64,000 nt of DNA from positions 3,558,001 to 3,622,000 of the forward strand of contig NC_045147.1 in assembly GCF_008831285.2 (NCBI RefSeq), read 5' to 3'. Source of the DNA: Nymphaea colorata (taxonomy: Eukaryota > Streptophyta > Magnoliopsida > Nymphaeales > Nymphaeaceae). This document shows, piece by piece, positions 3,500 to 49,856 of the stretch. Both the position numbers and the translations under genes were made by a program. Within the stretch, counting starts at the first letter, position 1. Each line of letters opens with the position of its first letter. Under the pieces are notes generated by a model. That model was not told where the DNA came from. It searched no databases and saw nothing but the letters and a program-made list of their open reading frames with translations.

Positions 3500-3889
3500 T
3501 AACTTCTTTGGGGAAAGAAAGCAGACTTGCAAATGATGTGCAAATGTTAAGACATTATTTGATAGAATAAGGACTGATCAATTTCAAGCTATGATGGAGC
3601 TGCATATGGAGGTTTGTATTGGACAAATGCAGAGATGTTGGCAAGAGATGGATTTGTGACAGTTCCACTATAGTGCCCTGTTGAGAAAGAGTCAACTTTA
3701 ATTTGAATAAGTCAAGTCTGATCCCATCAAAGGTCATTGAAACAAGAGTTTTAGTAGTTGGTTATGTCCCTTCTTGAACAGCTTTTCGTAATTGAATCAA
3801 CACGTTCGTAATAGTCTAGCCTTCAAATCTTGGTCTATCTGTGTGAAAACAATTCTTTGGCTTAAACAAGCTACTGAAAGGAGAAGCTC

Positions 3890-6330: not shown

Positions 6331-7039
6331 ATAATCATTCATCACCAACAAGACATCAAAGATTAACCTAGCAATCTGCTAACTTATGTTAAAGATAAAG
6401 GGGAGGGGAAAACTAGCAAAAAAGAGCTTCATGGACCATAAGTGCTTATTTTGAATTGGGTGATTGCTCTAGAAAGTATTACATAGTCTACTATGTCATT
6501 TATGATCAGTAACGTTCAGTATTGAATATGGCAGTAACGGCTCGAACAGGGCATCTTTTAGGTGTTATTTGGCATTAAGAACAAATTGTAAGTGTTCCAT
6601 GAATTTGCCTCAAAATTGTGACTACTGTCAAACAGTCCCTTAGGAGACTGACCCATTTACTGGTCTGCCGCTTGAAGGACATATTCCTGGTTGTGAAATA
6701 AAATGAAATAAAATATTTAAGGCGACGGTGGAATATGAGTCAAGTATATTCATCTTATCATAATTGGAACAGTAAAACCTCTATTAGCAACTAGGCTAGC
6801 AATGGCATATCTTTGGAATGAGCCATCACTTCTGTACCTTGATTTGGTACACCCATCACAACCATCAGTGTTGCCAAGACAAATTGCATCCGAGTCATAA
6901 ATAGCATGTGAGTGACACATTGCGGATGGGATCGCTGAAGACCACATGTTGATTGAACTATCAGTGAGATGGAGAGAAATGCATCAGTAAAGACCACGTG
7001 TTGGCAGAACCATGGTGACACTATGAGAAACAATGTCAT
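6331..7039. other. Intergenic, nothing recognised
   Basis: AT-rich sequence shared with copy B (54425-55146). Positions 6555-6650 carry half of the Tourist-like MITE motif (TGTTCCATGAATTT), suggesting a decayed or half element. No convincing coding sequence. Confidence 0.5.
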
Positions 7040-8316
7040 ATACTGCCATCGGTGGGTCTAACCATCAGCGACACAAGGAAAGCAATGTCATTGAGGACCA
7101 CACACTTGTTAATAATGGCACATTCTTTTTCAACGTCGCTGGTTTCCCAATTTCTTGTAATGATGTTAGAGTAATGTTGTTAGATGCATGTGTATCAAGA
7201 TGTAATGCGAGGGCTACACGACCTCGTATGCACACAGCATGATTATGTGCATCTGGTGCATGCAAGATTTTGGTTGATTGTGGTGATTTAAGAAAAGCGG
7301 GTCGATAAACATAAACCACACACTCTCGCTCCAACGCATTATATAGAAAAGATTTTCAGCTTACACTCTTGCTGTTTAGAAAACCATCCAGCAATGGCAT
7401 TAACGCACCCTTGCTGTTTAGAAAACCATCCAGCAACAATTGTGTGACCTTCAATGATGATTTCATCCAGTTTCGATGAGTATTTCCATCTCTCTCTTAT
7501 CTTTCTCTCCTCCTCTCTTCCAATTGGATGGTTGATGTCCACCGACAAGAATGGCAAATTGGCCGCTGGCCATTATTGTCTGTTAACCAAGATATCACGT
7601 GCTTTCCGGTTCCTCTGTATTGTATTAGACATCTAAATTTGATATTATGTAGCATGAAACTTATTCTAAAGAACAGGACTTGTCAACTTGATTTCATCCG
7701 TTATTAAGTATATGTGTGTAATTTTATATATTAAACTCTTTTATTTCTCATTTCTCAATTTTTGTGAATTGAGAATCAAGACATGTGCATATGAGCTAAC
7801 AAGTGAAAAAAAAGCTTTGGACCATTGGTTTTTGAATTTTCATGAAATCCTAATAAACTTTGAAGAAACATATTTTTTATCTTATGTTTTTCAAGTAGAA
7901 ATCATATTTGTATAGTTAGTTTCAATTTATAAAAAAAAATATGCATAGGTAGTTTTTCAGATAATTTAGTTTTTCAAACCATTTTTACCTTCTTATTTAC
8001 ATTTTTAGTGATATTATATATTTCAATATTTTGGACTTGATGTTTATGCATCACATCGCTGCATTGTGCATCACTTCACACCACAAGTTCAATGCATCGC
8101 TTCGCATCAGCAGGCTTAACAACATTGGATGTAACAATAAAAATCTTTTTTCTATGAAAAAAATGAATCATATTGAGACTAGTTGTCATCATGCGCAAGC
8201 GAAGTTTCAAAACAAGGAGACAGAGACCCCATTCATTAAAAGTAAAAATGATCTTTCAGATGCATTTACCAAAAGCGTCCCAGTGGAAAAATTAATAAAT
8301 TTCAATCTCAAGTAAG
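7040..8316 (+). pseudogene. Copia RNase H tail relic, interrupted
   Basis: Two pieces fit the end of a copia polyprotein. At about 7135-7170 there is a PISCND stretch like those at 19270 and 20350. At 8085-8315 a frame reads MNHIETSCHHAQAKF and then ETPFIKSKNDLSDAFTKS, which fits the KHIEIDCHFVREK...TP.I.S..QLADIFTKSL end of the RNase H domain. The two are separated by about 900 bases of unrelated AT-rich sequence, so the relic appears to have been interrupted. The same structure is at 55147-56427. Confidence 0.65.
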
Positions 8317-9388
8317 GTTGTGATGACATCTACACCCAATCGATGGTTAGTGTTGAAAAGATACAATTCTTTTGAAGGCAAATGAAATCTCTCGTACTTA
8401 TCTTTTAGATTTTTGGCTGTGGTTTTTTATGTCGCTTAAATTTATGCAATATTCTTTGTATAACAGAAATTTTCCTTGGCCATCGAGTGCATCCCCATGC
8501 CTATCTTTTCCTCTCCTCCCAGGAATACAAAGGGCAAGAAGAAAAGCTCATTTTTACTACTAAAAATGTCTAGGCGGCTAGCAATTTACAATATAAGAAA
8601 ACCACCAGGCATGACTCTATTGTAGTTGTCATCAACCGTCAAAGTCATTGAATAAACCGTCCTGTGGATATATAGCCTTATCGTGGATAATACGGGTCAA
8701 CATTAACGTTGGTGGATTTATTACTTTATGTACTTCATAGATGTTAGTTCGTCTTTTTGTACTACTTCATTTGTGACTTGAATCTCAAATAGCGTGGATA
8801 GTTCAAGGCTAGAACCAATTGAGTTCAAGTTACAGACCTAATTGTGAGGTTCCTTCCTCCCTACTAGCCATTCTCTAGCAATCTAAGGTTGTGTTTGTTT
8901 TACCATGGATTAATATCTATGGTGATCTAAGATCCCTAGGACCCCATCTGATATAAGACCCATGCTTTTTAAAATGAAATTCATGCTACTGAGAGCTTTA
9001 GTTTGTTTAAACTGAGGATCTCTCAAAACACACTGTTTGATGTAGCCTCGGATATGCAACCCACATGAATTGAGTGTTTGGTAAAATTTAAATGAACACT
9101 TACCTATGTGTTGCCAAGTTTGATATGTTCACTTTGTTGATGGGATGAAAATCATGATCTTTAAACTCATGTTTCCTTAACAAAAGAGATTTGTGGCTGG
9201 GATTTCTTTCCAACTTCAGACCATGACTTTTATACCCCAACCATTGCCCACTAACCATAAGAATTTGTTTTTATTTTTTTCCTTTTATGAAAACGTAGAG
9301 GGTAGTGATTAAATGGACATGGCAGCATTTCTATGCAGAACGGCCGTGGTTCAATCACGAGTACTTAATGAGAGAAATATCATCAAGT
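8317..9388. other. LTR-like tail and intergenic sequence
   Basis: Begins with the TGTTGAAAAGATACAATT motif that follows each copia RNase H relic in this window and probably marks the start of a decayed 3' LTR. The rest resembles the second half of the 3890-5515 module but is more diverged and lacks the CTCGAG-rich tract. No gene seen. Repeated at 56428-57499. Confidence 0.5.
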
Positions 9389-9408
9389 AAATAATGGTTG
9401 GTCAAAAC

Positions 9409-9584
9409 CAGTGGCGGAGCCAAAAATTTCTGTCTAAGGACCACTCTAAGCTTAAATTCGAACTTTAAGGGACACTCATATTAAAAACTGAAAATTAATG
9501 AAGTTTTCATATATAAATAAAGTAAATTTTATGGGCTGGTGTGGGCAATTGGCCCACACCAGCTACAACATAGCTTCTCCACTG
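9409..9584. mobile_element. 176-bp hAT-type MITE with central hairpin
   Basis: Starts CAGTGGCGGAGCC and ends GCTTCTCCACTG, imperfect terminal inverted repeats. Flanked by a perfect 8-base duplication, GTCAAAAC (9401-9408 and 9585-9592), the size expected of hAT. Inside, 9535-9546 and 9552-9563 form a perfect 12-base inverted repeat with a 5-base loop. It recurs at 12536-12711 and 57520-57695 because it lies in the duplicated unit. Confidence 0.9.
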
Positions 9585-9919
9585 GTCAAAACAAATTAAG
9601 ATGCATGAAGAGGATGCCTGGAAAATCTAGTCTGGTGGCATTGATCATATATATTCCCATGCAAAAGCCACAATAAGTGCATCTACATTATAAGAATTTT
9701 TTTTTTTAAGAAAGCTAAGTAAATTAGTTTGAGAATTTCCACTGGACATGGTAATTAGTTGTGCAGTTTGAATGCCAACTTGTAAGTGTAAAGACAGAAG
9801 TTTATGGCCTATAAGTACCACTTTTTACCTACGCTAGCTATTTGTTCATAATTTTTTTTTTTTAAATCAGTGGCACAAACTATGTCATAAACTATCAGAT
9901 AAGTTCCACATGCATTTCT

Positions 9920-10205
9920 CTTCTCTAATGCTTCTTGTTTCACAAGCTAACAAAATTTCAATATGGGCTTCAAAGGTGCGTATTTCATGTTTCATAGAAA
10001 GCAATACCTTTATTAAGATAATTATAAAATGTAATCTTTTTTAGTAATTACTAAAAGTCCAAGCCAAAGTATTCAAAAATAATTGTGGCATTTAAGCTTT
10101 ATTTTTTCTGCCATCATGCGATGTCAATCAAATGGTGGAGATAGCTTAATCTTGTCATCCAAAGATGAGTTCAAGGGACGAAAACCATAGACTACCCATC
10201 ATCGG
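9920..10205 (+). promoter_or_regulatory. Relic of the hevein-like gene's upstream region, gene absent
   Basis: Resembles pieces of the upstream region of the hevein-like gene (about 16885-16930 and 17230-17390). Shared blocks include AACAAAATTT, CCTTTATTAAG, CAAAAATAATTGT and CGAAAACCA...A.CTA.CC in the same order. The TATA box and coding sequence that follow in the working copy are missing; the next 500 bases are unrelated. Similar relics are at 13090-13313, 21745-22010 and 58030-58316. Confidence 0.6.
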
Positions 10206-10719
10206 TTTCAATTTGTAGGCAGCCTAGTAAACAGTTGCATGGCTACTTAATTTGCTAGTAGTTATACTTCATAAGCTGCCATTGCATTCGTTTTGTGATC
10301 TTTCTAGTTTCAGCTTAACATATTTATCTTCATAGTTCTGTTAGATCATATTAATGGTGCTTATTGCTTGGTTTAGTTAGACATAGTGAAGAAAATTGAG
10401 CTTCTTCTACATTCTCGAACTTTTCTCTGAACAAAATTTTTGGGTATGCCAGACACCTCATTGTAGGAGCAAATTCTTAGAGCTTTGGGGGTGCCATTCT
10501 TCCCACTGGTGCGTCTACTCCGTGAGGACCTTCAGTTTTTTTAAAAAAAAAACTTATTTTCATCTAATTTTAAAAAAGCCTTCAAGAACTGGTTTTCTGG
10601 TTCTTTGTTTTAAAGTCTGTATGAAGAAATATCTCCACAAAAGTTGAAAAATTCATGTTTTAGAATCTAGGGGTAATTTTTGATATCCTTGAAAAGGGTT
10701 TTACTTCTCTAACAACGTA
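10206..10719. other. Spacer replacing the hevein gene, no gene seen
   Basis: AT-rich. It shares GAGCTTCTTCTACATTCTCG with 13507 and 22216, so it is an old part of the repeating block. An 83-codon open frame (10396-10647) is not maintained in the sister units, where A-run changes shift it. Confidence 0.5.
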
Positions 10720-12290
10720 GCTTTCAAACAAGCCCTATTTTGCTGGATTTGAGCACCAATTGCCATCCTAAGTTACCCATTTTCAGAAACTTGTTGAGAA
10801 AGCCTTGCCATACAATTGTAGGGGCATTTTAGGAATTTAATTAGTTACCTTATTTTTTTAATATCTACCAATTAGAATAGGTTTATTGTTATTATTTGTT
10901 TTGGTTGTAGTTTATTGACTTTTTTTTTCTTGCTTTAACCACTTATTTTGCGCCTCTTCCAGGATTCATGAGTAGATTGAAGACGTAAAGTGCGGATATT
11001 GGCAGAGTAGTCAAAGCACTTCAGGGTATATTTATTTTGTGCATTGGATTGTGTTCCTTTTGTGACTTTGCATAATTTTTTTAATTTGAGTAATAAAGGA
11101 AATTTATATCTTATCCATTTTTGTTTTGGATCATGATTATCTGAGATCTTGTTGTTTGTGAATCGAACCCGACTTATCACCACTTTTTGTGTAGATCTGA
11201 AAATTTAATTGGTGTGCTACTGGGACGCAATAGAAGATAGCATCACAAAAGGCCAAAGATGGGCTGCGCGCACCATAAGGAGCCATGTGGCATAACATAG
11301 CAAATCACATTTTGCGTGAGAAAGCGAAAGACATCAATAGTCATTGCCATTATGTGCAGAAGAAAGTCGAAGGAGATGGAGACCCCATTTGATAAAAACA
11401 AAATCATTTTCCAAATTCATTGACCGAAAGTTCGCCGACAGAAAATTTCAAAAAATATCAATTGCATGTAATGGATGGTGTTGAAAGGTACAATTCAGAT
11501 GAATATAGATGAAACTTCTCATGCTTGTCTTTCAGGAAGTGTGGATGTGGTTACGGATATCGCCTAAATTTATACAATATTTTTTTTATTACAAAATTTT
11601 TTCTGGCCAATCACTTGTTTCTCAGTGCCTTATTTTTTCGTCCTTTGTTCCTACCATAAAGGGCTTGCAATCTACCAAATAAATGATAATCAGGCATGAC
11701 ACTATCGTAGTCGCCAATAAACCATCACAGTCATTGAGTAAGCCAGTATGAGGCTCAACATGTTCCCCGTGGATGTTTCCCTTGGATAATATAGGTCGAC
11801 ATTGGGTTGAATCACATAAATGTGTTGTCTTTGTGTGCTCATGTGTGGCTTGAAACTCCCGATGCAAATTGTTGGGAGAGAGGATAACCTGGGGGCAGAG
11901 GCAGTTGTGGGGCACCATGTGGACAACCTACAAAAAATTCTTATTTTTATATTGATACTTCAAATAAATTTTATTTATTTACATGTTGGTATTTCTTAAA
12001 ACCCGACTAGGCTCAACTACATAATGGGTGTTAAATTATAATGAGAAAGTAGTTAAACAAATAGCAACTGAACAAGTTAATGAGTTAAATGAATTAAGAG
12101 TTAAACAAAATGAGACTTGTTTAACATAAATGAGCTAAACGAGTCGAGTCCAAGGTTGACGTTGTATCCTTAAGTCAAGCTACAGCTTGTTCTATCGAGC
12201 TCAAGTTTTTTGAATCGAACTCAAGCTGGCCCAACTTGAACTCGACTCGGCTGGTGTGCCGCCTTACTTCCTCCCAACTAGCAGTGCTAT
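10720..12290. repeat. Copia-LTR-like module, second copy
   Basis: Same order of motifs as 3890-5515 but slightly shorter: about 60 bases are missing around the first half of the RNase H relic (near 11293), and a GATGAATATA insertion is present before the LTR-like part. It ends in the CTCGACTCGGCTGG tract. Confidence 0.75.
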
Positions 12291-12535
12291 ATATTACACT
12301 CTAAATGAATCGAGTATTAGTAAACTCTCAAATGAACACTTATTCGAGTGTAATTGCCAACTTCGTAATTCCAAATGTCCTCTTTGTTGAGGGGATGCAA
12401 AATCAAGATATTTTAGTTAACACTTGCTTCCTTAACAAAAGAGATTGATGGCTGGGATTTTTTTCCAACTTCTAAGCAAGACTTTTATGGCTCTAGCCAT
12501 TGCCCGTCAACCACTAAATAATGGTTGGTCAAAAC

Positions 12536-12711
12536 CAGTGGCGGAGCCAAAAATTTCTGTCTAAGGACCACTCTAAGCTTAAATTCGAACTTTAAGGGAC
12601 ACTCATATTAAAAACTGAAAATTAATGAAGTTTTCATATATGAATAAAGTAAATTTTATGGGCTGGTGTGGGCAATTGGCCCACACCAGCTACAACATAG
12701 CTTCTCCACTG
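12536..12711. mobile_element. 176-bp hAT-type MITE, second copy
   Basis: Same element as 9409-9584, with the same 8-base flanks GTCAAAAC at 12528-12535 and 12712-12719. It was copied as part of the tandem unit, not by new transposition. Confidence 0.9.
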
Positions 12712-13828
12712 GTCAAAACAAATTAAGATGCACGAAGAGGATGCCCGGAAAATCTAGTCTGGTGGCATTGATCATATATATTCCCATGCAAAAGCCACAA
12801 TAAGTGCATCTACATTATAAGATTTTTTTTTTTTAAGAAAGCTAAGTAAATTAGTTTGAGAATTTCCACTGGACATGGTAATTAGTTGTGCAGTTTCAAT
12901 GCCAACTTGTAAGTGTCAAGACAGAAGTTTATGGCCTATAAGTACTAGCTATTTGTTCATTTTTTTTTTTTAAATCAGTGGCACAAACTATGTCATAAAC
13001 TATCAGATAAGTTCCAGATGCATTTCTCTTCTCTAATGCTTCTTGTTTCACAAGCTAACAAAATTTCAATATGGGCTTCAAAGGTGCCTATTTCATGTTT
13101 CATAGAAAGCAATACCTTTATTAAGATAATTATAAAATGTAATCTTTTTTAGTAATTACTAAAAGTCCAAGCCAAAGTATTCAAAAATAATTGTGGTATT
13201 TAAGCTTTATTTTTTCTGTCATCATGCGATGTCAATCAAATGGTGGAGATAGCTTAATCTTGTCATCCAAAGATGAGTTCAAGGGTCGAAAACCATAGAC
13301 TACCCATCATCGGTTTCAATTTGTAGGCAGCCAAGTAAACAGTTGCATGGCTAGTTAATTTGCTAGTAGTTATACTTCATAAGCTGCCATTGCATTCGTT
13401 TTGTTGTCTTTCTAGTTTCAGCTTAACATATTTATCTTCATAGTTTTGTTAGATCATATTAATGGTGCTTATTGCTTGGTTTAGTTAGACATAGTGAAGA
13501 AAATTGAGCTTCTTCTACATTCTCGAACTTTTCTCTGAACAAAATTTTTGGGTATGCCAGACACCTCATTGTAGGAGCAAATTCTTAGAGCTTTGGGGGT
13601 GCCATTCTTCCCACTGGTGCGTCTACTCCGTGAGGACCTTCAGTTTTTTTTAAAAAAAAACTTATTTTCATCTAATTTTAAAAAAGCCTTCAAGAACTGG
13701 TTTTCTGGTTCTTTGTTTTAAAGTCTGTATGAAGAAATATCTCCACAAAAGTTGAAAAATTCATGTTTTAGAATCTAGGGGTAATTTTTGATATCCTTAA
13801 AAAGGGTTTTACTTCTCTAACAACGTAG

Positions 13829-15399
13829 CTTTCAAACAAGCCCTATTTTGCTGGATTTGAGCTCCAATTGCCATCCTAAGTTACCCATTTTCAGAAACTT
13901 GTTGAGAAAGCCATGCCATACAATTGCAGGGGCATGTTAGGAATTTAATTAGTTACCTTATTTTTTTTAATATCTACCAATTAGAATAGGTTTATTGTTA
14001 TTATTTGTTTTGGTTGTAGTTTATTGACTTTTTTTTTCTTGCTTTAACCACTTATTTTGCGCCTCTTCCAGGATTCATGAGTACATTGAAGACGTAAAGT
14101 GCAGATATTGGCAGAGTAGTCAAAGCACTTCAGGGTGTATTTATTTTGTGCATTGGATTGTCTTCCTTTTGTGACTTTGCATAATTTTTTTAATTTGAGT
14201 AATAAAGGAAATTTATATCTTATCCATTTTTATTTTGGATCATGATTATCTGAGATCTTGTTGTTTGTGAATCGAACCCGACTTATCACTACTTTTTGTG
14301 TAGATCTGAAAATTTAATTGGTGTGCTACTGGGACGCAATAGAAGATAGCATCACAAAAGGCCAAAGATGGGCTGCGCGCACCATAAGGAGCCATGTGGC
14401 ATAACATAGCAAATCACATTTTGCGTGAGAAAGCGAAAGACATCAATAGTCATTGCCATTATGTGCAGAAGAAAGTCGAAGGAGATGGAGACCCCATTTG
14501 ATAAAAACAAAATCATTTTCCAAATTCATTGACCGAAAGTTCGCCGACAGAAAATTTCAAAAAATATCAATTGCATGTAATGGATGGTGTTGAAAGGTAC
14601 AATTCAGATGAATATAGATGAAACTTCTCATGCTTGTCTTTCAGGAAGTGTGGATGTGGTTACGGATATCGCCTAAATTTATACAATATTTTTTTTATTA
14701 CAAAATGTTTTCTGGCCAATCACTTGTTTCTCAGTGCCTTATTTTTTCGTCCTTTGTTCCTACCATAAAGGGCTTGCAATCTACCAAATAAATGATAATC
14801 AGGCATGACACTATCGTAGTCGCCAATAAACCATCACAGTCATTGAGTAAGCCAGTATGAGGCTCAACATGTTCCCCGTGGATGTTTCCCTTGGATAATA
14901 TAGGTCGACATTGGGTTGAATCACATAAATGTGTTGTCTTTGTGTGCTCATGTGTGGCTTGAAACTCCCGATGCAAATTGTTGGGAGAGAGGATAACCTG
15001 GGGGCAGAGGCAGTTGTGGGGCACCATGTGGACAACCTACAAAAAATTCTTATTTTTATATTGATACTTCAAATAAATTTTATTTATTTACATGTTGGTA
15101 TTTCTTAAAACCCGACTAGGCTCAACTACATAATGGGTGTTAAATTATAATGAGAAAGTAGTTAAACAAATAGCAACTGAACAAGTTAATGAGTTAAATG
15201 AATTAAGAGTTAAACAAAATGAGACTTGTTTAACATAAATGAGCTAAACGAGTCGAGTCCAAGGTTGACGTTGTATCCTTAAGTCAAGCTACAGCTTGTT
15301 CTATCGAGCTCAAGTTTTTTGAGTCGAGCTCAAGCTGGCCCAACTTGAACTCGACTCGGCTGGTGTGCCGCCTTACTTCCTCCCAACTAGCAGTGCTAT
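13829..15399. repeat. Copia-LTR-like module, third copy
   Basis: Same as 10720-12290 with scattered substitutions. Predicted open frames on the minus strand (14731-15027 and 14811-15035) lie in the LTR-like part and are not genes. Confidence 0.75.
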
Positions 15400-15622
15400 A
15401 TATTACACTCTAAATGAATCGAGTATTAGTAAACTCTCAAATGAACACTTATTCGAGTGTAATTGCCAACTTCGTAATTCCAAATGTCCTCTTTGTTGAT
15501 GGGATGAAAAATCAAGATATTTTAGTTAACACTTGCTTCCTTAACAAAAGAGATTGATGGCTGGGATTTTTTTCCAACTTCTAAGCATGACTTTTATGGC
15601 TCTAGCCATTGCCCGTCAACCA

Positions 15623-16125
15623 TTAAAAAACAATTGTTTTTATTTTCTTTCTTTACAAAAAACATAGTGCATAGTTATGAAATAGACGTGATCTCACTTC
15701 TCTGCACAACCACCATGGTTCAATCTTCACCTACGTGAAATCTTAAAGCAAAGAAATATCATCAAGTAAATAGAGTACTTTATCAACAAGATTTCATCAA
15801 GTTTTTGAGGCCAGTACAAAGAAATATTCAGTTTGATACTGTAGTCGCTTACAAAGCAAGCTCTAGATTCCAACCTAAACGTGATCTGCCTTTTAGACCT
15901 TTCTACAAATGGCGGCATATTAAAGCAGATCACACTCTAATCGAGCTATCTGTCCTTTAGAAGGTTGTTTGAGGGCAGAAACAATATGTTACTGTTTCAT
16001 ATATTTTTGCCTCAAAGGTTATGGTGCCTTAAAAATTGAAATAAATTCATTAATTACTTTCAAAAATATTTTGTGAATTTATCTCAATTTTTGCGGCACA
16101 TACATGGCTTACCAAACAACTTTTA
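15623..16125. other. Intergenic, nothing recognised
   Basis: AT-rich sequence preceding a MITE, shared with copy B (60613-61111). No gene seen. Confidence 0.5.
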
Positions 16126-16289
16126 TGGGGTCCTTTGGCAGTAGAGACATTTTGTGAGTGTCCCATGAATTTATCCAAAAGATTGAGGCCAGTTTATCGA
16201 ATGCTAAAACTATCATTTTATGAACATGCTATAATATTTGGGGTAGATTCATGAGACACTTACAAAGTGTTGCTGCTGCCAAACCACCC
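16126..16289. mobile_element. 164-bp Tourist-like MITE
   Basis: Long imperfect inverted repeats of about 50 bases: the left arm contains TTTGGCAGTA...GAGTGTCCCATGAATTTA and the right arm is its inverse. Flanked by the 3-base duplication TTA (16123-16125 and 16290-16292), typical of PIF/Harbinger MITEs. The copy-B counterpart is 61112-61275, and elements of the same design are at 30168-30330, 31017-31164 and 39415-39578. Confidence 0.8.
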
Positions 16290-17403
16290 TTATAAGTATG
16301 GAGAAAGCAGAATTTGTTGCTTTTTTTCCAATGTTATAAAATTATTTATGAGCCAACAAGCGGCTGAATCGGCCTCTATCACTTAATACAGTCCAACAAG
16401 ATGTGTCATTTTGGTTTTGAATAAGAAACAAAAATTGGTATCTATAACACTCACGATTAATATAAGAAGCTGAGTAATTAATGGAGTGAATGTTAGACAA
16501 AATTTGTGACATCTTAATTAGCAGGATTTAAGGGAGTGGTTTTAGAAGTGCGATCATCAAGGCAACTGTATATGGATCCAATTTTAGTCCCTTATTTTAT
16601 CTATTTTAATTTATCTTATGGATATCCAAGCCACTGAACTTTCAAATATATGGTGGTACAAGAGAAATGTGAAGGGGTCAAGTCCCAACTTCACCATTAA
16701 TTTATTTCCTGAGATTTTTCATGGTTTCGCTATAGTAAGGTTCGGTGGCTAGGGCTCTTTGGTCTCATTAAAAAAGTTAGTTAAAAAATACAAGTAACAG
16801 TTTTAAGTAGTTTAGAATGTAAAATATGATCCTTTCAAGGCACTTATATTGAAAATCCGTGCATCAGTCACCAAGTAATAGGTTGAAATCTTGTTCTCAA
16901 GTTAACAAAATTTTTGTACTGGCCTCAAAAGGTTCTTGTTCTCAAACTGGGAATACTAAGGGGATCTCGCGACCGTTTTCAACGTCGATCGGGACTCAAG
17001 TCTCAACATTGATCGGGGGACTCAAGTCCCGTGCTTCTTCCCTTCCTTCCTTCCCATTAGGAGCGGAGGGAAGGGGGCAGCAAGGGTCTTGGCCCCTGTC
17101 AGATTTTAAAAATTTTAAAATTTATATATAAATTTAAAGAAATTATTATAATATATATTTCAAATCACGTTTTACCGATGGTTTTGACCGTTGGCAGCCA
17201 TAAATTTTTTAGTGGGTGTTTTGTGGAAATTAGTAAAACCTTTATTAAGAAATGACAAGTAGTAGTCATCTTTTGTGGTGGCTAAGTCCAAAGATTCAAA
17301 AATAATTGTAGTATTTTAAAGGTTTTACGTTATCCATGGATTGAAGACGACTTCATGGGTCGAAAACCAAAGCTAGCCACCAACATGTTGCCCTTAACTC
17401 CAA
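16290..17403 (+). promoter_or_regulatory. Upstream region of hevein-like gene A
   Basis: About 1.1 kb between a MITE and the TATA box, shared with copy B (61276-62384). Parts at about 16885-16930 and 17230-17390 are the segments also found as orphan relics elsewhere in the window. Between them is a GC-richer insert (about 16950-17100) with a repeated CTCAAGTC motif. No specific factor site can be asserted. Confidence 0.5.
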
Positions 17404-17411
17404 TATAAATA
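17404..17411 (+). promoter_or_regulatory. TATA box of hevein-like gene A
   Basis: TATAAATA, 89 bases before the ATG at 17493. It lies at the same distance in copy B (62385). Transcription would be expected to start near 17435, giving a 5' leader of about 55-60 bases. Confidence 0.75.
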
Positions 17412-17492
17412 GGTGAGCCAAGGTAGCATTACTCATGAGCATTTATCCCAATCATAAGCTCTAGCTAGAGAAAGTGAGATTATACATATCAG

Positions 17493-17723
17493 ATGGAAGG
17501 AGGGAAGGGAAGAAGCGGCGGTGCAGCGGTGCCGCTTATGATCATGGTGTTACTTGTGCTGGTTGTAGGGGCAATGGTTATGCCTATTGCAGAGGCTCAA
17601 TGCCAGAACGGGCCTTGCTGTGGTGCAATGGGTAACAACCAAGTGGACTGCAAAACAATAAATCCCAACTATTGCTGCAGCAAATTTGGCTACTGTGGCA
17701 GTGGCCCTGCCTATTGCGGGTGA
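17493..17723 (+). CDS. Hevein-like secreted cysteine-rich peptide, copy A
   Basis: A 76-residue precursor. Residues 1-12 are basic and polar, 13-30 form a hydrophobic core, and AEA|Q at 33-36 is a good signal-peptidase site. The predicted mature peptide is 41 residues with eight cysteines (37, 42, 43, 53, 61, 62, 68, 75). Its second half has the chitin-binding core CCSKFGYCGSGPAYCG, close to Amaranthus Ac-AMP and to hevein. Ser63, Phe65, Tyr67 and Tyr74 sit where hevein binds N-acetylglucosamine. The first half, with an extra CC pair at 42-43, is not the standard hevein N-terminus, and the hevein C-terminal segment is absent. Likely role, inferred: a secreted antifungal or chitin-sensing peptide. 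Start chosen as the first ATG after the TATA box. A TGA directly follows the last glycine. Single exon. Confidence 0.85.
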   Translation: MEGGKGRSGGAAVPLMIMVLLVLVVGAMVMPIAEAQCQNGPCCGAMGNNQVDCKTINPNYCCSKFGYCGSGPAYCG

Positions 17724-18155
17724 GCTTTTTAGCTCTAATGTTATGCCATTGTCAGGCTTATAAGACGGTCTTATGGCTATGAATAAAGCAGCTAGCTAAG
17801 CTGGTGGTAAGGTCCGGGTCAGCTCCAGTACTCCTTAAATAAAGCAGTGTATGCACCGTCTTGTTTGATGATGTAATATCTATTTGTGGAATCTCATAAT
17901 GACACGTTATATGTGTTTGTTGTGATTGCATTGTGTCCTTCCATTGGCTTTAGAGAAATTTTAAAGCTAAATATGTGTCGTCTTTTATGGTTGCATGAAA
18001 TTGGTCATCGATTCACGGATTTAAGATCCAAGGTTGCATTAAAAGACGTGCTTTAGAAGACTGGGATCTTAGGAACGTGGAATAAAAACTGTTGATTTAA
18101 CATCGGATGGAAGAGAGAAAGGGTTTCATTAATTTACTGCTAATTATTTTTTGAG

Positions 18156-18158
<3 letters not shown>
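17724..18158 (+). terminator. 3' UTR and poly(A) signals of hevein-like gene A
   Basis: Two AATAAA signals lie 59 and 115 bases after the stop (17782-17787 and 17838-17843), both within an ATAAAGCAG context. The sequence is shared almost unchanged with copy B (62705 onward), consistent with a transcribed 3' region. No other gene seen. Confidence 0.6.

Positions 18159-18198
<40 letters not shown>
18159..18198. repeat. (TTA)n microsatellite
   Basis: About 13 ATT/TTA units. Copy B (63139-63163) has about 8. Confidence 0.95.
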
Positions 18199-18199
<1 letters not shown>

Positions 18200-18950
18200 A
18201 AAGCAGAAGTATTCACGGTCGATATCTTGGTCACCCCTTAAGGGACTAAATGCCAAGTTGTGGGTCTCTGACTAATTTGGAGGATATTATCCAACATCTT
18301 CCACAGGCATACGAACACGTGTAACTGTCTATCAGTTTCTGATATTTATTTTTGTTTTTATTTTATTTATGTCATGTTTGGTAATTGTCAACATATTTAA
18401 TTAAGTCATATATCTGACGTCTCAAACTATACGTCAGTAGAGTTAGAGAAGAAGTTAGCTGGTGGCCAATAGGGTGTGAATTAGAAGATAGCAGTAAGCT
18501 TTTAATTGTACTTTAGTTAGGTTTTAAATTCTTAGCTAACATAGTTAAAGTCAAGTAATTAGATTAGCAAGAGTTACTTTTTTTTTTTTACTTAATTATA
18601 TTCTTCATGTGTAGATTTCCACTTAATTATATATATGTAGATAATCCGGCCCTTTCTTGGCCATCGTGTGCCACTTCTAACTTAATTATTCAATTGGATT
18701 TAATTAGATTAGCTAGTTAATTTATGCAATCTAATTAAACTTCACCAGCTAGAACCTTTAAAGGGGTTCATGTTAAGCTAGCTGTTGGTTTATGTTGTGC
18801 TCCTAAGTTTTCTATTTTCGTAAATTTATCCTGAGAGCATCTCTAGATATGACATTGTAGGGCCACTTTCAGAATTTCATCAGTTGGATTATTTTCTTTA
18901 ATATTTTTTGTCAATTAGAATTGGTTTTTTTTTTCATCTCCTCTGCTTTT
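18199..18950. other. Intergenic, nothing recognised
   Basis: AT-rich, shared with copy B to the window edge. Contains several TTAATTA and TAGCTAG stretches but no coding sequence or clear element ends. Confidence 0.5.
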
Positions 18951-18954
18951 GTTT

Positions 18955-19130
18955 TAGTTTATTTACTTAGTTTTTCTTGTATACAATCCCATGTCGAGCC
19001 ATTGGGTCCTCCATGAGTGGACACTCCTTTTACAGCAAATGAAATGTCAGCTCTAATCATGGGCACTCCTTTTAAGTGCTTTCTTCATACCATACAGAGG
19101 CTTTCAAAGTTAGCAAACATGATTTTTGAG
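18955..19130 (-). pseudogene. Copia RNase H relic, minus strand
   Basis: Read on the minus strand it aligns with the longer relic at 23040-23345: both share the context of a VCQ...EDP...H stretch and the plus-strand motif GGGTCCTCYATG. Heavily decayed with stops. The right limit of the copy A/B similarity visible in the window (19034) falls inside it only because the window ends there. Confidence 0.4.
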
Positions 19131-26010: not shown

Positions 26011-26018
26011 ATAGTGAC

Positions 26019-27283
26019 TAGGGCTGCACAACAAGTCGAGCCAACTCGGGCTCGACTCGAACTCGCTTTGAAAAACTCGACTCGTTTATAAACGAGTCGA
26101 GTTCGAGCTGAAAGTTAAACTCGAATCAATAAATGAGTTGAGTTCAAGTTGTAAGAACTCGACTCGTTTATGGTCGGCTCGGCTCGATTGTTAAAAATCG
26201 TTTCGTTTAATTATATAAACCGGTTCACCGAGCCACCGATTCACCGATTTAGGTTAAACGAGTCACCACCGCCCTATCTCTCTCTCATTTTTACTGCCCA
26301 CAGCTGCAACGACTCACCACCGCCACGCCATGACCACCACCACTCACATGATGTGCAACGGTGCCAAAGCGGTGGAAGGGACATTGGGGCTAATGCTAGG
26401 GTTCCTCCGATTCTAATCACCTCTCCTCGCAACGGAAAGAGGCGATAAGGTTAAGGGTTCCGCCTTCGCGTAGCTATTTGGGCAACGATGCCACCATCCA
26501 GCAAAGTCCAGCCACTATACTGGTTAGTCTCTCTTCTCACCTTTCCTTGAAACCCTAGCGTTCTTTTGAAGCTCCGCCATACATGTTTAGGGCTTTTTTC
26601 ACAGGTGGATGTCGAGACAGAGGTCGCTGCCAGACAGATAAAGAGGACAGATGAAGAGGAGGACGTTCAAGAAGTTCAGTTTTAGGGGAGTTGATCTCGA
26701 TGCCCTCCTTGACATGCCCACAAAGGAGCTCATCAAACTCTTCCATGTCCTGGCTCAAATAAGGTTTTTATCTCTCGCACTCTGTTTTTCATCCTCCTCC
26801 CTCTCTCTTTCTCTTTTACATGGTTTTCCATCTTTTTGACGAATGTGTAGGTTCCAGAGAGGTTTGAAGAGGAAGCCGATGGCATTGATCAAGAAAATGC
26901 ACAAAGTAGTAATCAATCTCTTCCTTAAATTTCATTTTGTTTGAGAAACATCTTCCTGGTTGAGTTTGAATTGGGGCTTCAGCACATAGTTGTTTTTCAT
27001 GGTGGATTTTGTCTGCCTACATTTTGCCTTTTTTAGTTGTACCATAGAATTTGCTTTGGTGTCGTAAATGAATTAAACGAGTTGACATAAACAAGTTTAA
27101 AAAAACAAGTCATAAACGAGTTAATCGAGTTAAGTGAGTCGAGTTCGAGCTCGACTCTGTATATTCGAGTCGAGCTCGAGCTTGTGTTAGGGAGCTCGAC
27201 TCGAGTTCGAGCTCGAGCTCTGTGAGCTGAGTCGAGCTCAAGCTGGGCAAGCTCAAGCTCGACTCGGCTCATGTGCAGCCTTA
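26019..27283. mobile_element. Pack-hAT element carrying a ribosomal protein S15 gene fragment
   Basis: Starts TAGGGCTGCACA and ends TGTGCAGCCTTA, a 12-base terminal inverted repeat with one mismatch. Perfect 8-base target duplication ATAGTGAC (26011-26018 and 27284-27291). TA(G/A)GG ends and an 8-base duplication are the hAT signature. Subterminal regions of about 200 bases at both ends are packed with CTCGAGCTCGACTCG-type repeats. There is no transposase frame, so it is non-autonomous. The interior holds a host gene fragment (26604-26908). The element is absent from the sister CXE unit at the equivalent point near 33960-34000, so it inserted after that duplication. Confidence 0.92.
26604..26908 (+). 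pseudogene. RPS15: Captured fragment of cytosolic ribosomal protein S15 (uS19) gene
   Basis: Exon-like segment 26604-26763 reads VDVETEVAA in one frame, then [20 protein letters not shown] and [10 protein letters not shown] in another. A GT...AG intron (26764-26850) follows, and the next exon (26851-26908) continues in phase as FQRGLKRKPMALIKKM. This is the conserved N-terminal half of eukaryotic S15/uS19. It is broken by what looks like a tandem duplication of about 15 bases (ACAGATRAAGAGGA twice, about 26632-26660), which shifts the frame, and the C-terminal half is missing. An AAACCCTAGC motif upstream (about 26550) suggests that leader or promoter sequence was captured too. The retained intron shows that capture was from DNA, not from mRNA. 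Confidence 0.88.
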
Positions 27284-27482
27284 ATAGTGACCATGACACT
27301 TTGACCAATTTGTGGCAGCCGTGATCTCCAAAAAGATGTAAAGCAAAGAGGAAAAGAAAAATAGCTAGTAGTTTTTATTTAAGAAATTTTGTCGGATTTC
27401 GTCCACATTACTGCCAAATGTTAGGTAGAAAGAGAAGCTTTTGGCTTTTGGCAACAAGAAAGAGCATCTGAAACTCGTCCTT

Positions 27483-28457
27483 CTATAACGGACGGCCAGG
27501 ATGGTGCCACTCACTATTGATGAACGAAGCAAATCGCTTGAGCAGCAACTTCGCCTTCTCATCCTCTGGCCTGAACAGATGAAAAACGTGTTCCTCCCCT
27601 TCCACCTCCGCCTTCCCCTTCCAACCGCTAGCAGTCAAGGCTTCATAGAACCACCGGCCATGGCCCCGCAGGAAGTCCTTTCCAGCAATGGCTACCAACA
27701 CGCGCCTGCATCCCAGCCCAGAGAGGGACGGCGAGCCAACTGCTAGCGGATTCATAATGGGGTCGTCGACTCCAGGGCTGGCAGGGCACGCCAACTTCCA
27801 TATCAACTCTACACGTGCTGCCAACACCGGCAACTCACCGTCGAGGACAGTCGACGACCAGAAGTATGGATGGACCAGAAGGGTCCCCTAGATCTTCACC
27901 AGGTCTTCGACTAGAGGACCCGATCCATGAACTGCAGATGTGCCGCCTGCTCTTATGGCTACATGGTGGACGAGGTTGGCACCGGCGCTGTCGCCGGTGA
28001 CCATGATGTGGCTGAGGTCGGCATGATTGGCGATCCACGGCTCAGTGCCTGGTCTAGTCTGGCGCGCCACCCACTTGAAGGCTGCCCAGCAGTCGTGGTG
28101 GCAGTTGGGGCATGATGTTTCGGGGCAAGGCGGTACTCGACGGAGACGGCCCTCGACTCGGCGACGAGGGAGTTGAGGTAGTTGTGGTAGAGAGGGAAAA
28201 AGGCAGACCCGCTGAAGAAGCCACCACCATGGAAGTAGAGGCAGCCGGTGATGGTTGCCGGAAAGTGGGGGGAGGTAGAGGCGGGCGGAGAGGGTAGTCT
28301 CAGGGTCGATGAGGACGTCCTTTAAGGATACACCGGTGGTATGATGGTCGGTGGAGGGAGGGACCCTCTCATTGCCCTTCAGCCTCTCTACCTGGCTGTC
28401 CTTATGGAGCCGAATGAATCCAGGGACTTCGCCTATCAACTCTGCAGAGGAATCCAT
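27483..28457 (-). pseudogene. Carboxylesterase (CXE) pseudogene of unit 1
   Basis: Close relative of the intact gene at 34192-35190. The ATG and first 70 or so codons are intact (MDSSAELIGEVPGF...). Then an 8-base deletion lies just before the HGGG oxyanion-hole codons (near 28239), a 6-base deletion follows, and a 1-base deletion (near 28110) restores the frame, so the segment between is misread. Further on, the CAG codon equivalent to Gln195 is TAG (27889-27891). Beyond it the 3' third is open to the same ending as the intact gene, and still encodes the Asp and His of the triad. Function as an esterase is not expected. The hAT element 28575-30133 sits about 120 bases upstream of its ATG. 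Confidence 0.92.
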
Positions 28458-28574
28458 GCTTTAGAGAGAGAGAGAGTGTGTGCGCGCCTAGTGTGTAGCC
28501 TTTCTCCTTACCATAAATGGGTACTTTTTCAGTTTCCTATTTTCATTTTTTTCTATTATTCATTTATTTGTAAT

Positions 28575-31472: not shown

Positions 31473-34191
31473 CACGATCAATATAAAAAAAGATAATCCC
31501 AATTATGGCCTATTGAAAAACAGACCCGGCCTTCAATTTCTTGCTCCATTGTCCTTCAAGTATGAGCAACCAGCATTTCCTATGCAGTTTTTCTCAATTA
31601 AATCCAAAAGATCTTGTGACAAAAAAAAAATCCTCATTTTATGCACCCAAACTCATTATTATTGCCATTAAAAATAGGTATCAATGATTGGAAAAATCAA
31701 AATTGTCATGTCCATTTGCCATAGTAAAAGAAGTGCTCTCAAGAATTTTGTCAAATGGTTTATGCATAGACATGTTTAACTTGCGCACTTAATTGTTCAG
31801 CCTTCACCAACAATCACGACCTTACACAACAACGCTCAGGTTCACTCAAACCTAAGCTCTAAGACCACTATTTGCAACAAAATGCGAGTCTAAGATGGAG
31901 TCTCATGCAATTCCTCTTTTTTATTTGTGCAAATTGCAGATAGTAAGAAAACAGCAGCCAACTTGGGGGAACACAAAGAATCAATTGGAGAATAGAGTTT
32001 GCGGCACAAATATTTTCAATTGCTTACACAATAGGTAGTACTGTTCTATTTTATGTACACAACAATCATTTAACTTGCGATCAATAACCCCCTTTTGGCA
32101 GCATAAGAGGGTTGACCCCCTTACACTCGAATTGCGGAATGGCTGCGCACCTACCAACTCTTAGGTATAGAGTCAGAAACTTTTCATGGGGCAGGCCAAA
32201 TTAAAGTTTCTAAATTTTGACAATGACAAAAATATTTATTTTTTAAAATTTTATATAAAACAAGTGAATTTTTTTAAAAATTTACATGTAAATTTTTTTT
32301 TTTAATTTTGAGACATTGGCTCTGCCAACACCAAACCCCAAACCATTGCATCAACCCCATCGGAGCTATGACTGCTGTTGTCTCTAGCATCGTGAGATGA
32401 TCACCAGATTCACCACAAGTGCGGATGCACTAGAATGATGTGTTGGATCTTCACTGGGTCTTCAACAAGCTAACCCAATCCATGAATTACATGTTCACCC
32501 TCGGGTCTCATGTTAGCATCAAGAATGAGATTATGTTTTAAAAGGTGATGGAGCGAGGCTAGGTGCTAAGTCCGTCGTGAGGCAAGGTTTAGGCCTCACA
32601 GCATTAATGAAGAGTGATTTTCATGGTCAAAATGGTTTAGGTGTAAAACATTTATCAAAATAAAGAAAAAATTTGAAAAAGGAGAATTAAAAAATTAAAT
32701 ATATCAATAAAGCACAATTTTAAAAGCACAGGTAACTAGTGTTGATCATCTTTCATACACATACACACGTGCAAACCACAATTAATGGTGCAGGATAAAG
32801 GGAGTTCAACTGACAATCACAAAACCTTATTAAAAATAAAACCCTAAGATCGAATGAAATATTTAAAGCTACTTTAAAAAATAAATCTCTAAGTAAGGTG
32901 TTTTAAGAAAGTAAATGACTATTAAAACAGGCTTTACTTTTCTAACAATGTGCTAAACCACGTGAAGAGACTGAAAACGAAAAAAACAAAGGCAAAAAAA
33001 AAAACAAAAGTTTTTTTGAAAAATGCCTTAAAAATAATTTTCTAACTAAGATGCGTTAACTAAACAAATGACCAAAAATCCCTTTGATTTACACTGCAAA
33101 TCGACAAACCCCAAAAAAAAGAAAAGAAAAAAAAGACATTCAGTTTTGGAAAATGCCGTAATAATATTGTGTTTCCATTCAAATCACGTTCTAGAATATT
33201 TTAAACTACATCCAAAACGATTACAAGGAAGCTACATTGAAACAGAAAACAAACACTATGCATTGAAAAGCAGGAGTTGCTGCTGGAAAAGGGAAGAACA
33301 CGACCAGCGTGATAATCTTATTCAAACTCGACCAAATGCATGTGGATCGTTTTTTATCGACTTTTTTTTATGGAAAATCAATATAAGCACGATTCTAAAA
33401 TCGATTCCACACCCAAGCCCTAATTCTTGAACTCTTAAAACTCATTAAGACCGTTTATTTGGTTTGTTTGTGGTGTCCAGCTTTCCTACCATATGTTCTT
33501 AAGAAGGTTTAGTGCAATAGTTTGGAGTGAGGACTGGTAGGTGGCTAATCTCCATTTCAAGTATGAAAAAGCATCAACCTTGCAACCTAAAGTGTAATAG
33601 AGACTGCACTCTAAAACACTGAAAGCGGACCCTTCAAACTAAGGTGACAAGAGGTTGGATGGAAGCTCCGACTCTCTTTGTTGGGACGTGTACAAATTTC
33701 AAATATATGGCTTACCAAAATTTTTGGTCAGCCACGGAGACAAAACGTGAATGTTGGGCCTACCATGTAGAAGAATGTGGAATGCATAATGCTTCCCAAA
33801 CAATGAATTGTTACTGATTTCTTTTCATGTGTACGAAATTTTAGAACATTATTCACAGCGATCCCTTTGTCAATATTTGATGCATACTACTAAATTTAAC
33901 TTTTATTTAATTTCTTCTTTCTTTACGTCAACCACAAACAAACACAAAATTAAGCATACAATGAAGAAGATCACATCATTCACTGAGACACTTTGTCCTA
34001 TATGTGGCATCCGTGAATCTGCAAAAAGATGTAAAGCAGAGAGGAAAAGAAATTTGGTCGGATTCTGTCCAACTTATTGCCAGTGTTCTGATTTTTTTCT
34101 CCTTCTCTCGAAGACGACGATGGCAGACGTTTGGTAGGAAGTGAAGCTTTTGGCCTTGGGTAAGAACAAAGGGAACCTGAAACTCATCAAT
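31473..34191. other. Left (3') flank of CXE unit 2, no gene seen
   Basis: Diverged counterpart of the flank at about 23400-27480 without the hAT insertion. A 120-codon open frame at 33068-33430 is A-rich, has no domain and is not open in the sister flank. A 109-codon frame at 33808-34137 likewise has no support. The CXE 3' UTR should lie within the last few hundred bases before 34192 on the minus strand. Confidence 0.55.
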
Positions 34192-35190
34192 CTATAATGG
34201 ACGACCAGGATGGTATCGACCACCGTTGATGAACGAAGCAAATCGCTTGAGCAGCAACTTCGCCTTCTCATCCTCTGGCCTGAACAGATGAAAGACGTGT
34301 TCTTCCCCTTCCACCTCCTCCACCTCCGCCTCCCCCTTCCAACCGCTAGCAGTCAATGCTTCGTAGAGCCACCGGCCGCGGCCCCGCAGGAAGTCCTTTC
34401 CGGCAATGGCTACCAAGACGCGCCGGCACCCCAGGCCAGAGAGGGACGGCGAGCCAACCGCTAGCGGATTCATAATGGGATCGTCGACTCCAGGGCTGGC
34501 AGGGCACGCCAACTTCCATATCAACTCCACAAGTTCTGCCGACTCCGGCAACTCCTCGTCGAGACGAGTCGACGACCAGAAGTACGGGTGGACCAGAATG
34601 ATCCCCTGGATCTTCACCGGGTCTTCGATAGGCGGACCCGATCCATGAACGGCAGACGCGCCCCCGGCTCCCATGGCTACGTGGTGGACGAGGTTGGCAC
34701 CCGCACTGTCGCCGGCGAGCACGATGCGGCCAAGGTCGACATGATCGGCGATCCATGGCTCGGCGCCTGGTCCAGTCTGGCGTGCCACCCATTGGAAGGC
34801 CACCCAGCAGTCGTGGTGGCAAGCGGGAACGGGATGCTCCGGAGCTAGGCGGTACTCGACAGAGACGGCGACGGCCCCCGACTCAGCGACGAGGGAGTTG
34901 ACATAATTGTGGTAGAAAGGGGAAAAGGCAGACTGGATGAAGAAGCCACCACCATGGAAGTAGATTAAGAGTGGGCGGCGGTGGTGGTTGCCGGAAAGTG
35001 GGGGGAGGTAGAGGCGGGCGGAGAGGCCAGTCCCAGGGTCGATGAGGACATCCTTGGAGGAGACGCCTGTAGGATGATGGTCGGTGGAGGGAGGGACCCT
35101 CTCGTTGCCGTTCAGCCTCTCTACCCGGCCGTCCTTATGGAGCCGAATGAATCCAGGGACTTCGGCTATCAACTCTACGGAGGAATCCAT
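34192..35190 (-). CDS. Carboxylesterase (CXE, class-I alpha/beta hydrolase fold 3), intact
   Basis: 332 residues, the usual length for plant CXE/HSR203J-like esterases. One alpha/beta-hydrolase-3 domain covers most of it. HGGG at 79-82 forms the oxyanion hole, and GDSAG at 160-164 carries nucleophile Ser162. Asp266 (GKDFLRGRG) and His298 (EEHVF) complete the triad. Retention of the His argues for an enzyme rather than a GID1-type gibberellin receptor, where it is replaced. No signal peptide, so probably cytosolic. The substrate cannot be told: relatives hydrolyse small acyl esters, convert tuliposides or dehydrate isoflavanones. The start is the ATG in CAACCATGG, aligned with both pseudogene starts. 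Single exon, normal for many members. It is the only whole CXE in the window, among at least three broken or cut copies on the same strand. Confidence 0.95.
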   Translation of the reverse strand: MDSSVELIAEVPGFIRLHKDGRVERLNGNERVPPSTDHHPTGVSSKDVLIDPGTGLSARLYLPPLSGNHHRRPLLIYFHGGGFFIQSAFSPFYHNYVNSLVAESGAVAVSVEYRLAPEHPVPACHHDCWVAFQWVARQTGPGAEPWIADHVDLGRIVLAGDSAGANLVHHVAMGAGGASAVHGSGPPIEDPVKIQGIILVHPYFWSSTRLDEELPESAELVELIWKLACPASPGVDDPIMNPLAVGSPSLSGLGCRRVLVAIAGKDFLRGRGRWLYEALTASGWKGEAEVEEVEGEEHVFHLFRPEDEKAKLLLKRFASFINGGRYHPGRPL

Positions 35191-35802
35191 GGTTGAGAGA
35201 TGTGAGAGAGAGAATATGTGTGTCTCCTGTGTGCCGGAGCCCTTCTCCTTGTAATCTTATTTGTAAATGGATGTTGTTTTCAGTTTCCTAACACTGCTTT
35301 ATTTTTTTATTTATTATGGTGTCGACATGAGGATTCTTTTATTTCAAATGTCCCACACAGAGGATCTCATGAAGGTTTTTTTTTTTTTTCATAATAAGGT
35401 ATCTGGTCAAGTGAAACGTGAAATTGTCAATTATTAATTTGATTCATGTGAACGCTACTTATCTAGATTACTAACAAATGGTGGATACACGTTAGGTATA
35501 TCGATTCCTAACCAGATCACAACCTTTTATCTCAAAGGCAGGGAAGTAAGCAGTAAATCTCCATACAAAGTAGTTATGATTGGTCGTATGGTTATCCAAC
35601 TGTTCAATTGGAGCTTCGTCATATATATATTTGATATATTATTTGAACTCTAAAGCATGAGCTATTACAGGATGTGATGATGAACGCTATTTAAAATATA
35701 TAATTGGAGGTCGTTTCTATGGATCTAATCTTTGTTCATAGAACACTAGAATAGCCGAGATTCATGCTGTCAAACCACCCTTTATATGCAGACTGTGACT
35801 TG

Positions 35803-46339: not shown

Positions 46340-46755
46340 CACTTCTCCCGGTTAATTTCCCGGCAATCAAGCAGCAATGATGGGCTTTCAGTGTCGATGA
46401 TGGCCTTCGAAGCAGAGGAAAGGCGGTCAATTCAAAGGTGCATAGGTCTGTGTGAACGGTGGCTCAAGGGTTCACATGTCCACAAACCCTTTCTATTTTC
46501 TCTACTGTTTTTGACGATGCAGACAACAAAGCATGGTGTCCAGAGAGAGGAAAGTTTGCCTTCCTCCTGACAACTTATCTTGCAATCTAAACAAAAAGGA
46601 TACAGTTATTTCTTTTCAGAAGAACTCTGAACTGAATTGAGAAGAACTCTGAGCAAAGTGAATTCAATTCAGCTTCCTTCTTTCTCAGTTATCTAAACAA
46701 AAAATACAGTAATTTCTTTTCAGATTTTTATCAAATACCATCCTACTCGTACCAG
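46340..46755. other. Right part of the CXE flank interrupted by the LTR element
   Basis: 46640-46755 resembles 36970-37095, ending in a shared TCCTACT(C/T)GTA(C/T)CAG. It contains an internal duplicate: CTAAACAAAAA...TACAGT.ATTTCTTTTCAG occurs at about 46585-46620 and 46692-46722. The first 270 bases are GC-richer, with an 85-codon frame (46313-46570) that starts inside the LTR and is not a gene. Confidence 0.5.
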
Positions 46756-47361
46756 AAGAAAGGGTGCACCAAAATGACTCCTTGAAGCTTTACCGGATCT
46801 TCAAGGGCTCGACCAGATCCAAGAGCTGCAGAGGCGCCGCCGGCACTTATGGCCACATGGTAGGCGAGGTTGCCGCCGGCGCTGTCTCCAGCAACCACGA
46901 CGTGGCCCAAGTCGGCATGATCAGCGATCCACGGCTCAGCACCAGGCCCTGTTTGGGACACCACCCACTGGAAGGCTTCCCAACAGTCGTGGTGGGAGGT
47001 GGGGACGGGATGCTCCGGAGCCAGGCGGTACTCGATGGAGACGGCAACGGCACCGGACTCGGTGACAAGGGAGGATGTAGTTGTGGTAGAGAGGGGAGAA
47101 GGCAGACTTGATGCAGAAGCCACCACCATGAAAGTAGACTAAGAGTGGACTGCGGTGGTTGCCGGAAAGTGGGGGGAGGTAAATGCGGGCGGAGAGGCCG
47201 GTTGCGGGGTTGATGAGGAAGTCCTTAGAGGAGACGCCGGTGGCATGATGGTCGTTGGAGGGAGGGACCCTCTCGTTGCCCTTCAGCCTCTCTACGCGGC
47301 CATCTTTGTAGATACGGAGATATTCAGGAACCTCCTGGTCCAACTCTTGGGAGGGATCCAT
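46756..47361 (-). pseudogene. Carboxylesterase (CXE) pseudogene, 3'-truncated
   Basis: Starts at ATG 47361 (MDPSQELDQEVPEYLRIYKD), a CXE subtype distinct from the two other units. HGGG is intact at residues 78-81. A 2-base deletion near 47073 shifts the frame. In the other frame the gene continues correctly through SIEYRLAPEHP and GDSAGGN to VILVHPFFW, then stops at an abrupt junction at 46755/46756. The last third, with the catalytic Asp and His, is gone. The start is identical to the partial gene at 1-25, whose copy may or may not share these lesions. Confidence 0.93.
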
Positions 47362-48145: not shown

Positions 48146-48177
<32 letters not shown>

Positions 48178-49779: not shown

Positions 49780-49856
49780 GCCAGGGGCGGTGCCATAAAC
49801 TTTTGACCAAGAGGCACTAAATATATAGTGAATAAAAAACGTATAAATTAAAAGAA

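Follow-up and report, generated by a model that had tools for sequence, protein, structure and literature searches.

Pack-MULEs, which capture gene pieces and then amplify them, work in the same way as the water-lily element described here, although they belong to a different superfamily. In the present case, the terminal inverted repeats (TIRs), the 8-bp target site duplication (TSD) and the transposase-bearing kin are all of hAT type. A count of the Pack-MULEs of rice is quoted in the available part of PMC8277862. Pack-hATs are known from maize and rice (Gisby and Catoni 2022, PMC8903248), and according to the accessible portion of that report they share with the element analyzed here a non-autonomous hAT structure, an 8-nt TSD, preserved TIRs and an interior of host coding sequence, some of them forming multicopy clusters. 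The differences lie in the host, here a water lily, and in the donor, here a gene for ribosomal protein S15; moreover, unlike the Pack-hATs in that portion of the report, the steps of the process can be ordered, because the donor, S15-free sister elements and an undeleted copy are all present in the genome. Among the animal Pack-TIRs, Pack-hAT-N8_XT similarly represents hAT capture of the 5' part of a gene and subsequent spread, marked by distinct TSDs, with three derived copies in the available text (PMC8277862), as opposed to at least 23 copies, from about 17 insertions, in the present genome. In Pseudocercospora fijiensis, a housekeeping gene, that of histone H3, was likewise amplified inside a hAT element; in contrast to the intron-containing genomic DNA captured here, the H3 sequence is attributed, in the accessible part of that article, to a captured transcript or retrocopy lacking introns (PMC6710886).

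A first-pass annotation of the DNA under study had regarded gene capture by hAT elements as less often described, a view that gives way to the Pack-hATs already in print for maize and rice (PMC8903248) and for animals (PMC8277862), as far as the available parts of these sources go. Among the papers listed for hAT gene capture and for Nymphaea hATs, none described an S15-carrying hAT element, as judged by title and abstract opening. The S15-bearing water-lily Pack-hAT is a new, well-preserved example of an already known process. How DNA transposons acquire unlinked gene pieces is still debated, and here a single genome of an early-diverging flowering plant preserves the donor gene, the S15-free sisters, a hybrid without the deletion (L023) and the deleted form that was amplified. 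Related species can therefore be used to test both the junctions and the sequence in which the events took place.

The window, i.e., the whole 64,000-nucleotide stretch of DNA that was analyzed, corresponds to positions 3558001-3622000 of contig C10 in an assembly of 407.8 Mb. At 26019-27283 it contains a 1265-bp non-autonomous hAT element with a piece of a cytosolic S15 (uS19) gene. The features of the element, and of a related site elsewhere in the window, are as follows.

26011..26018, no strand: 5' copy of the TSD, ATAGTGAC, an exact match to 27284-27291
26019..26030, + strand: 5' TIR, TAGGGCTGCACA, paired with the 3' TIR at 11 of 12 positions
26019..26259, + strand: 5' subterminal region, common to family members without the S15 block
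26260..26520, + strand: inner 5' element sequence, of which element positions ~256-324 also occur in the S15-free L037
26525..27026, + strand: captured S15 block, aligning to the host S15 gene at G000:C1:17147618-17148248 (- strand)
26605..26763, + strand: exon 2 relic, frameshifted; DVETEVA and a 21-residue stretch need two frames
26764..26850, + strand: retained intron 2, GT...AG, whose donor counterpart is 1615-1708 in the oriented L079
26851..26908, + strand: exon 3 relic (FQRGLKRKPMALIKKMHKV), from translated frames
27027..27283, + strand: 3' element region, from element position ~1032 also present in the S15-free L037 and L043
27272..27283, - strand: 3' TIR, TGTGCAGCCTTA, paired with the 5' TIR at 11 of 12 positions (12-bp TIRs)
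27284..27291, no strand: 3' copy of the TSD, ATAGTGAC, completing an exact 8-bp duplication
33897..34052, + strand: paralogous site without the insertion, adjoining the neighbouring Abhydrolase_3 gene, with matches to both flanks

The TIRs of hAT elements are short and start with T/C-A-G-G-G or similar, and the starts of the present TIRs, TAGGGCTGCACA and TAAGGCTGCACA, fit hAT-type ends. The terminal repeats, the perfect 8-base duplication and the repeat-rich ends reported in the first-pass annotation were all recovered, the last in the form of CTCGAGCTCGACTCG-like subterminal repeats in CTCGAGCTCGACTCG-rich ends. The 5' subterminal region (element positions 1-241, or nearly so) aligns to L032-L038, L040, L043 and others. 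The element is non-autonomous: the longest ORF (ATG, GTG or TTG start) lying wholly inside it encodes 92 aa, and the homology found in its interior is to S15.

Within the captured block the order is 5' UTR, end of intron 1, exon 2, intron 2, exon 3 and start of intron 3. When joined from three translated stretches, the S15 piece matches plant uS19 PDB chains (best E 1.2e-21). No Pfam match was obtained for this N-terminal piece, nor for exons 1-3 of the donor itself, so the identification rests on the uS19 chain match, the translated frames and the alignment to the donor gene. The S15 half with an in-phase GT-AG intron that had been read from the sequence stands as regards the S15 match and the intron; the reading frame does not. 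The copy is frameshifted within exon 2, so that S15 is not readable throughout in any single frame, and the start codon together with exon 1 is absent, as is most of intron 1, owing to a deletion of ~138 bp common to most copies.

Sequence comparison identifies the donor as an S15 gene on contig C1 that appears to be intact. The window copy aligns to it at 82.6% over 447 columns and 84.9% over a further 73, intron 2 included, the match extending into the UTR and intron 3. When exons 1-3 of the C1 gene are joined, they give an open S15 frame, and the last exon of the gene shows 98.8% identity to a plant S15. An S15 paralogue on C6 was rejected as donor, with 65.9% over 355 columns confined to exon 2-exon 3 and with the UTR and intron 3 unmatched. 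Other PF00203 matches, presumably organellar rps19 genes and their copies, were also set aside; the pair on C3 aligned to S15 at only ~33%. The S15 sequence is common to the subfamily and nevertheless derives from the C1 host gene, and the site is not the parental locus; neither objection foreseen in the first-pass annotation applies. Its proposal of DNA-level capture of host sequence by a non-autonomous hAT element agrees with the C1 donor and the introns, except that the capture took place in an ancestor and not at this copy.

Related elements, which had been expected to be retrievable from the genome, are numerous. Genome copy counts are lower bounds, and in the whole-element search the best 40 of 2159 candidates were scored. 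In a search with the donor block, 25 of 25 candidates were scored, consisting of the S15 genes on C1 and C6 and of 23 element copies; these copies represent about 17 independent insertions on eight contigs (C1, C2, C5, C6, C8, C9, C10 and C11). The left boundary of donor sequence falls at base 1253 in 19 of the 23 copies, at 1255 in two and at 1237 in one, this side being absent in the remaining copy; the right boundary is at base 1883 in 15 copies, no more than 5 bases away in four and truncated in four. The same deletion junction is present in 19 of 23 copies: ~138 bp are missing between two GGG triplets, among them the start codon and the greater part of intron 1; the BLAST matches break off at 1325 and start again at 1452-1458, with an overlap on the element side. 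In L022 the deletion is larger, and in L025 the left part is missing. One copy, L023, retains the entire 631-bp donor block (85.5% over 634 columns). The near-constant donor ends, the shared junction and the undeleted L023 point to one capture and one main deletion, followed by amplification. In a midpoint-rooted tree, from which L029, L030 and L031 were left out and in which 8 of 18 inner forks were unresolved, 14 S15 copies form a supported clade (99/96), and the window copy joins L009 and L010 (100/98) and then L011 (94/94).

The copies differ in their surroundings, and exact TSDs of differing sequence flank 7 of the 17 insertions (the window group, L012, L018, L021, L022, L026 and L031), including one with a degenerate 5' TIR (L012); in the other 10 the TSD is degenerate, truncated or unresolved. 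The window copy, L009, L010 and L011 have flanks that are ~93-100% alike and a TSD common to all four, and are segmental duplicates of one insertion. The flanks of L015, L016, L017 and L020 are 86-98% alike. It is this sharing among four plus four copies that reduces the 23 copies to about 17 insertions. Among the other 15 of 23 copies, no flank is common to any two different copies, and the two flanks of L031 resemble each other; in this comparison, boundaries were provisional at the 5' side of L014-L017, L020 and L030 and at the 3' side of L013. The distinct TSDs and flanks around the same block, together with the insert-free paralogous site in the window, establish that the S15 element was mobilized after capture. 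At that site (33897-34052), the element flanks are matched at 87.7% over 57 columns and 89.4% over 66; at the exact insertion point it has diverged and lacks an intact ATAGTGAC, so that it supports insertion without representing a clean single copy of the target.

The origin of the hybrid is recorded in its junctions. The S15-free elements L037, L043 and L036 have the 5' end in common with the window element, and beyond the S15 block element positions ~1032-1259 are again found in S15-free sisters (1047-1206 in L036). On the left, the S15 copies track the sisters as far as GGCCACTAT and then pass into donor sequence, the switch coinciding with a 5-bp ACTAT present in both sister and donor (chance 0.008, by simulation with L037 and the donor). 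On the right, the donor is left near GCATT and the sisters are rejoined before GTTGTACCATAGAATTTG, with microhomology of at most a few bases, in an alignment whose row for L014 is empty. Because the S15 block is flanked by segments also present in S15-free sisters, we infer template switching in the element interior. On a single occasion, ~631 bp of the C1 gene, running from the 5' UTR into the beginning of intron 3 and retaining the introns, would have taken the place of part of the interior of an S15-free TAGGGCTGCACA-family element. The simplest route would be a switch of template while a break or gap in that element was being repaired; models of capture by gap filling and fork switching are set out in the available part of PMC8277862. 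The hybrid, having retained both ends, could still have been mobilized by transposase supplied in trans by transposase-bearing kin. A descendant would then have lost the ~138 bp between the GGG triplets, this form transposing to most of the ~17 sites, and two insertions, that of the window included, would have been copied further by segmental duplication. The S15-free sisters may alternatively be later replacements and not ancestral. We consider the whole course of events, a multicopy Pack-hAT subfamily with a single S15 capture, deletion, spread and decay of the passenger, to be very probable.

Other origins can be weighed against the same junctions. Fusion of two family members inserted on either side of an S15 segment and then moved as one element has been proposed for Pack-TYPE elements including hATs, in the accessible part of PMC8903248. 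Interior template switching fits better than such a fusion of neighbours, because no family ends were found around the donor: in the 5.5 kb around the C1 gene there is no TIR (at up to 2 substitutions) and neither CTCGAGCTC nor CTCGACTCG, and the S15 block sits between segments that S15-free sisters possess. We therefore hold fusion to be unlikely, with a small chance of being correct. A looser scan allowing indels yielded one 2-edit TIR-like string upstream of the donor, which was discounted, as such strings occur, by eye, about every 2 kb. The number of copies and sites might suggest that the S15 gene was captured repeatedly and independently, which the near-constant donor boundaries and the single deletion junction common to 19 of 23 copies make almost inconceivable. 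Capture from unspliced RNA or a retrocopy would accord with a left boundary close to a TATA-like sequence of the donor; against it, intron 2 and, in L023, intron 1 have been retained, and the block stops inside intron 3, and we regard this origin as highly improbable.

Whether the captured piece serves a purpose, for instance by giving rise to small RNAs that match the S15 gene or by contributing an exon through shuffling, can be judged from its divergence, calculated for 13 of 23 copies (excluding the segmental duplicates L009, L010, L011, L015, L017 and L020 and the partial or chimeric L022, L029, L030 and L031). Among these, differences per site at codon positions 1, 2 and 3 are 0.125, 0.094 and 0.133, compared with 0.124, 0.128 and 0.096 in the introns and a UTR value of 0.151; the figure for position 2 is somewhat lower than the others. 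Relative to the donor, the copies differ by 0.102, 0.083 and 0.127 at the codon positions and by 0.249 in intron 2, the higher intron value probably reflecting constraint on the exons of the donor. The window copy keeps the GT and AG of its intron, and captured sequences within transposable elements can remain transcribed, according to the available part of PMC13317346. Against a functional insert, exons diverge among copies much as introns do, and the window copy is frameshifted, lacks a start codon and has diverged from the donor at 14% of 485 sites; such a role appears improbable. With near-neutral divergence of this kind, the S15 passenger seems to decay in a manner close to that of a pseudogene, without evident coding constraint, and the block is probably without function.

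The wider family provides candidates for the source of transposase. In the genome, 1371 sites match a 23-base family form of the 5' end with no more than 3 mismatches, compared with none for a reversed-pattern control. Of the first 100 sites listed among the 1371, all exact matches, eight lie 2.9-4.9 kb upstream of, and on the same strand as, hAT dimerisation domains; the pairing was made by hand, using the best 150 of 1113 domain candidates, and ~0.1 would be expected (a hand estimate). One of these eight, L042, has both family ends, a 6/8 TSD and a broken domain, its PF05699 match consisting of two pieces (1e-6 and 2.2e-14) on either side of a stop. L080 combines the 5' end of the family with PF14372 (3e-30) and PF05699 (8.1e-28); the terminal sequence matches the window element at only 69%, and the 6.1 kb of L080 yielded no 3' end. 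To judge from L042 and L080, kin with the same ends appear to encode a hAT transposase; an intact transposase-bearing element with both ends was not among them, the nearest being L042, with its broken domain, and L080, with its 5' end only.

Other cargo is apparent in the same family. In L030, S15 sequence runs past the start of the deletion and is followed by a LURP-one-related piece (1424-1630; PF04525, 3.4e-12) and then by S15 again, which constitutes a chimeric capture; its own element ends were not found. L041 carries a piece of a MATE transporter at 820-1470 (- strand; PF01554, 4.9e-5, just under the Pfam cut-off). The MATE piece also lies no more than ~1.2 kb downstream of hAT domains at five places (C4:1887293, C4:2009712, C9:8902553, C4:7605888 and C8:5791486), paired by hand from the best 150 of 1113 hAT candidates, which suggests that transposase-bearing members carry it as well. 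The interiors of L032, L034 and L045 are possible further captured first exons: that of L032 shows a weak match to an ARF-like first exon (E 0.4), and that of L045 may resemble a PDS5-like first exon. The TAGGGCTGCACA family may be a serial gene-capturer that swaps interiors by template switching (S15, S15 with LURP-one, MATE and possibly PDS5-like and ARF-like pieces), a proposal to which we give even chances; if it is true, a single genome still preserves donor, recipient and hybrid. Repeated units of ~170 bp, giving repeated LSLLLDSCSRLHARYPFSLPF-like frames, were observed in L039 (2911-6401, oriented) and L042 (1685-7001).

The surroundings of the element in the window are themselves repetitive. 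Related gene copies lie at 27483-28460, 34192-35256 and 46743-47406, all on the - strand, and the two that were tested, the first and second, are Abhydrolase_3 genes (alpha/beta-hydrolase, carboxylesterase-like). The copy adjoining the element is split into separate frames, and that at 34 kb is an open frame of 354 aa. For old 3' ends of the family elsewhere in the window, only weak candidate 5' partners were found (7 of 14 end bases alike and as many as 2 mismatches in the TSD). These old 3' ends of the TAGGGCTGCACA TIR family, at 5462-5518, 12255-12266, 15320-15375, 52780-52836 and 60307-60362, sit in duplicated units, with 56-57 bp matching at ~84% in four of the five places and a 12-bp end match at 12255. 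Positions 1-19032 and 47337-64000 of the window form a large direct duplication at 97-98% identity (for example, 1-5723/47337-53041, 5551-12518/53643-60614 and 12515-19032/57499-64000), and a further tandem unit of ~3.1 kb occupies 9388-15627.
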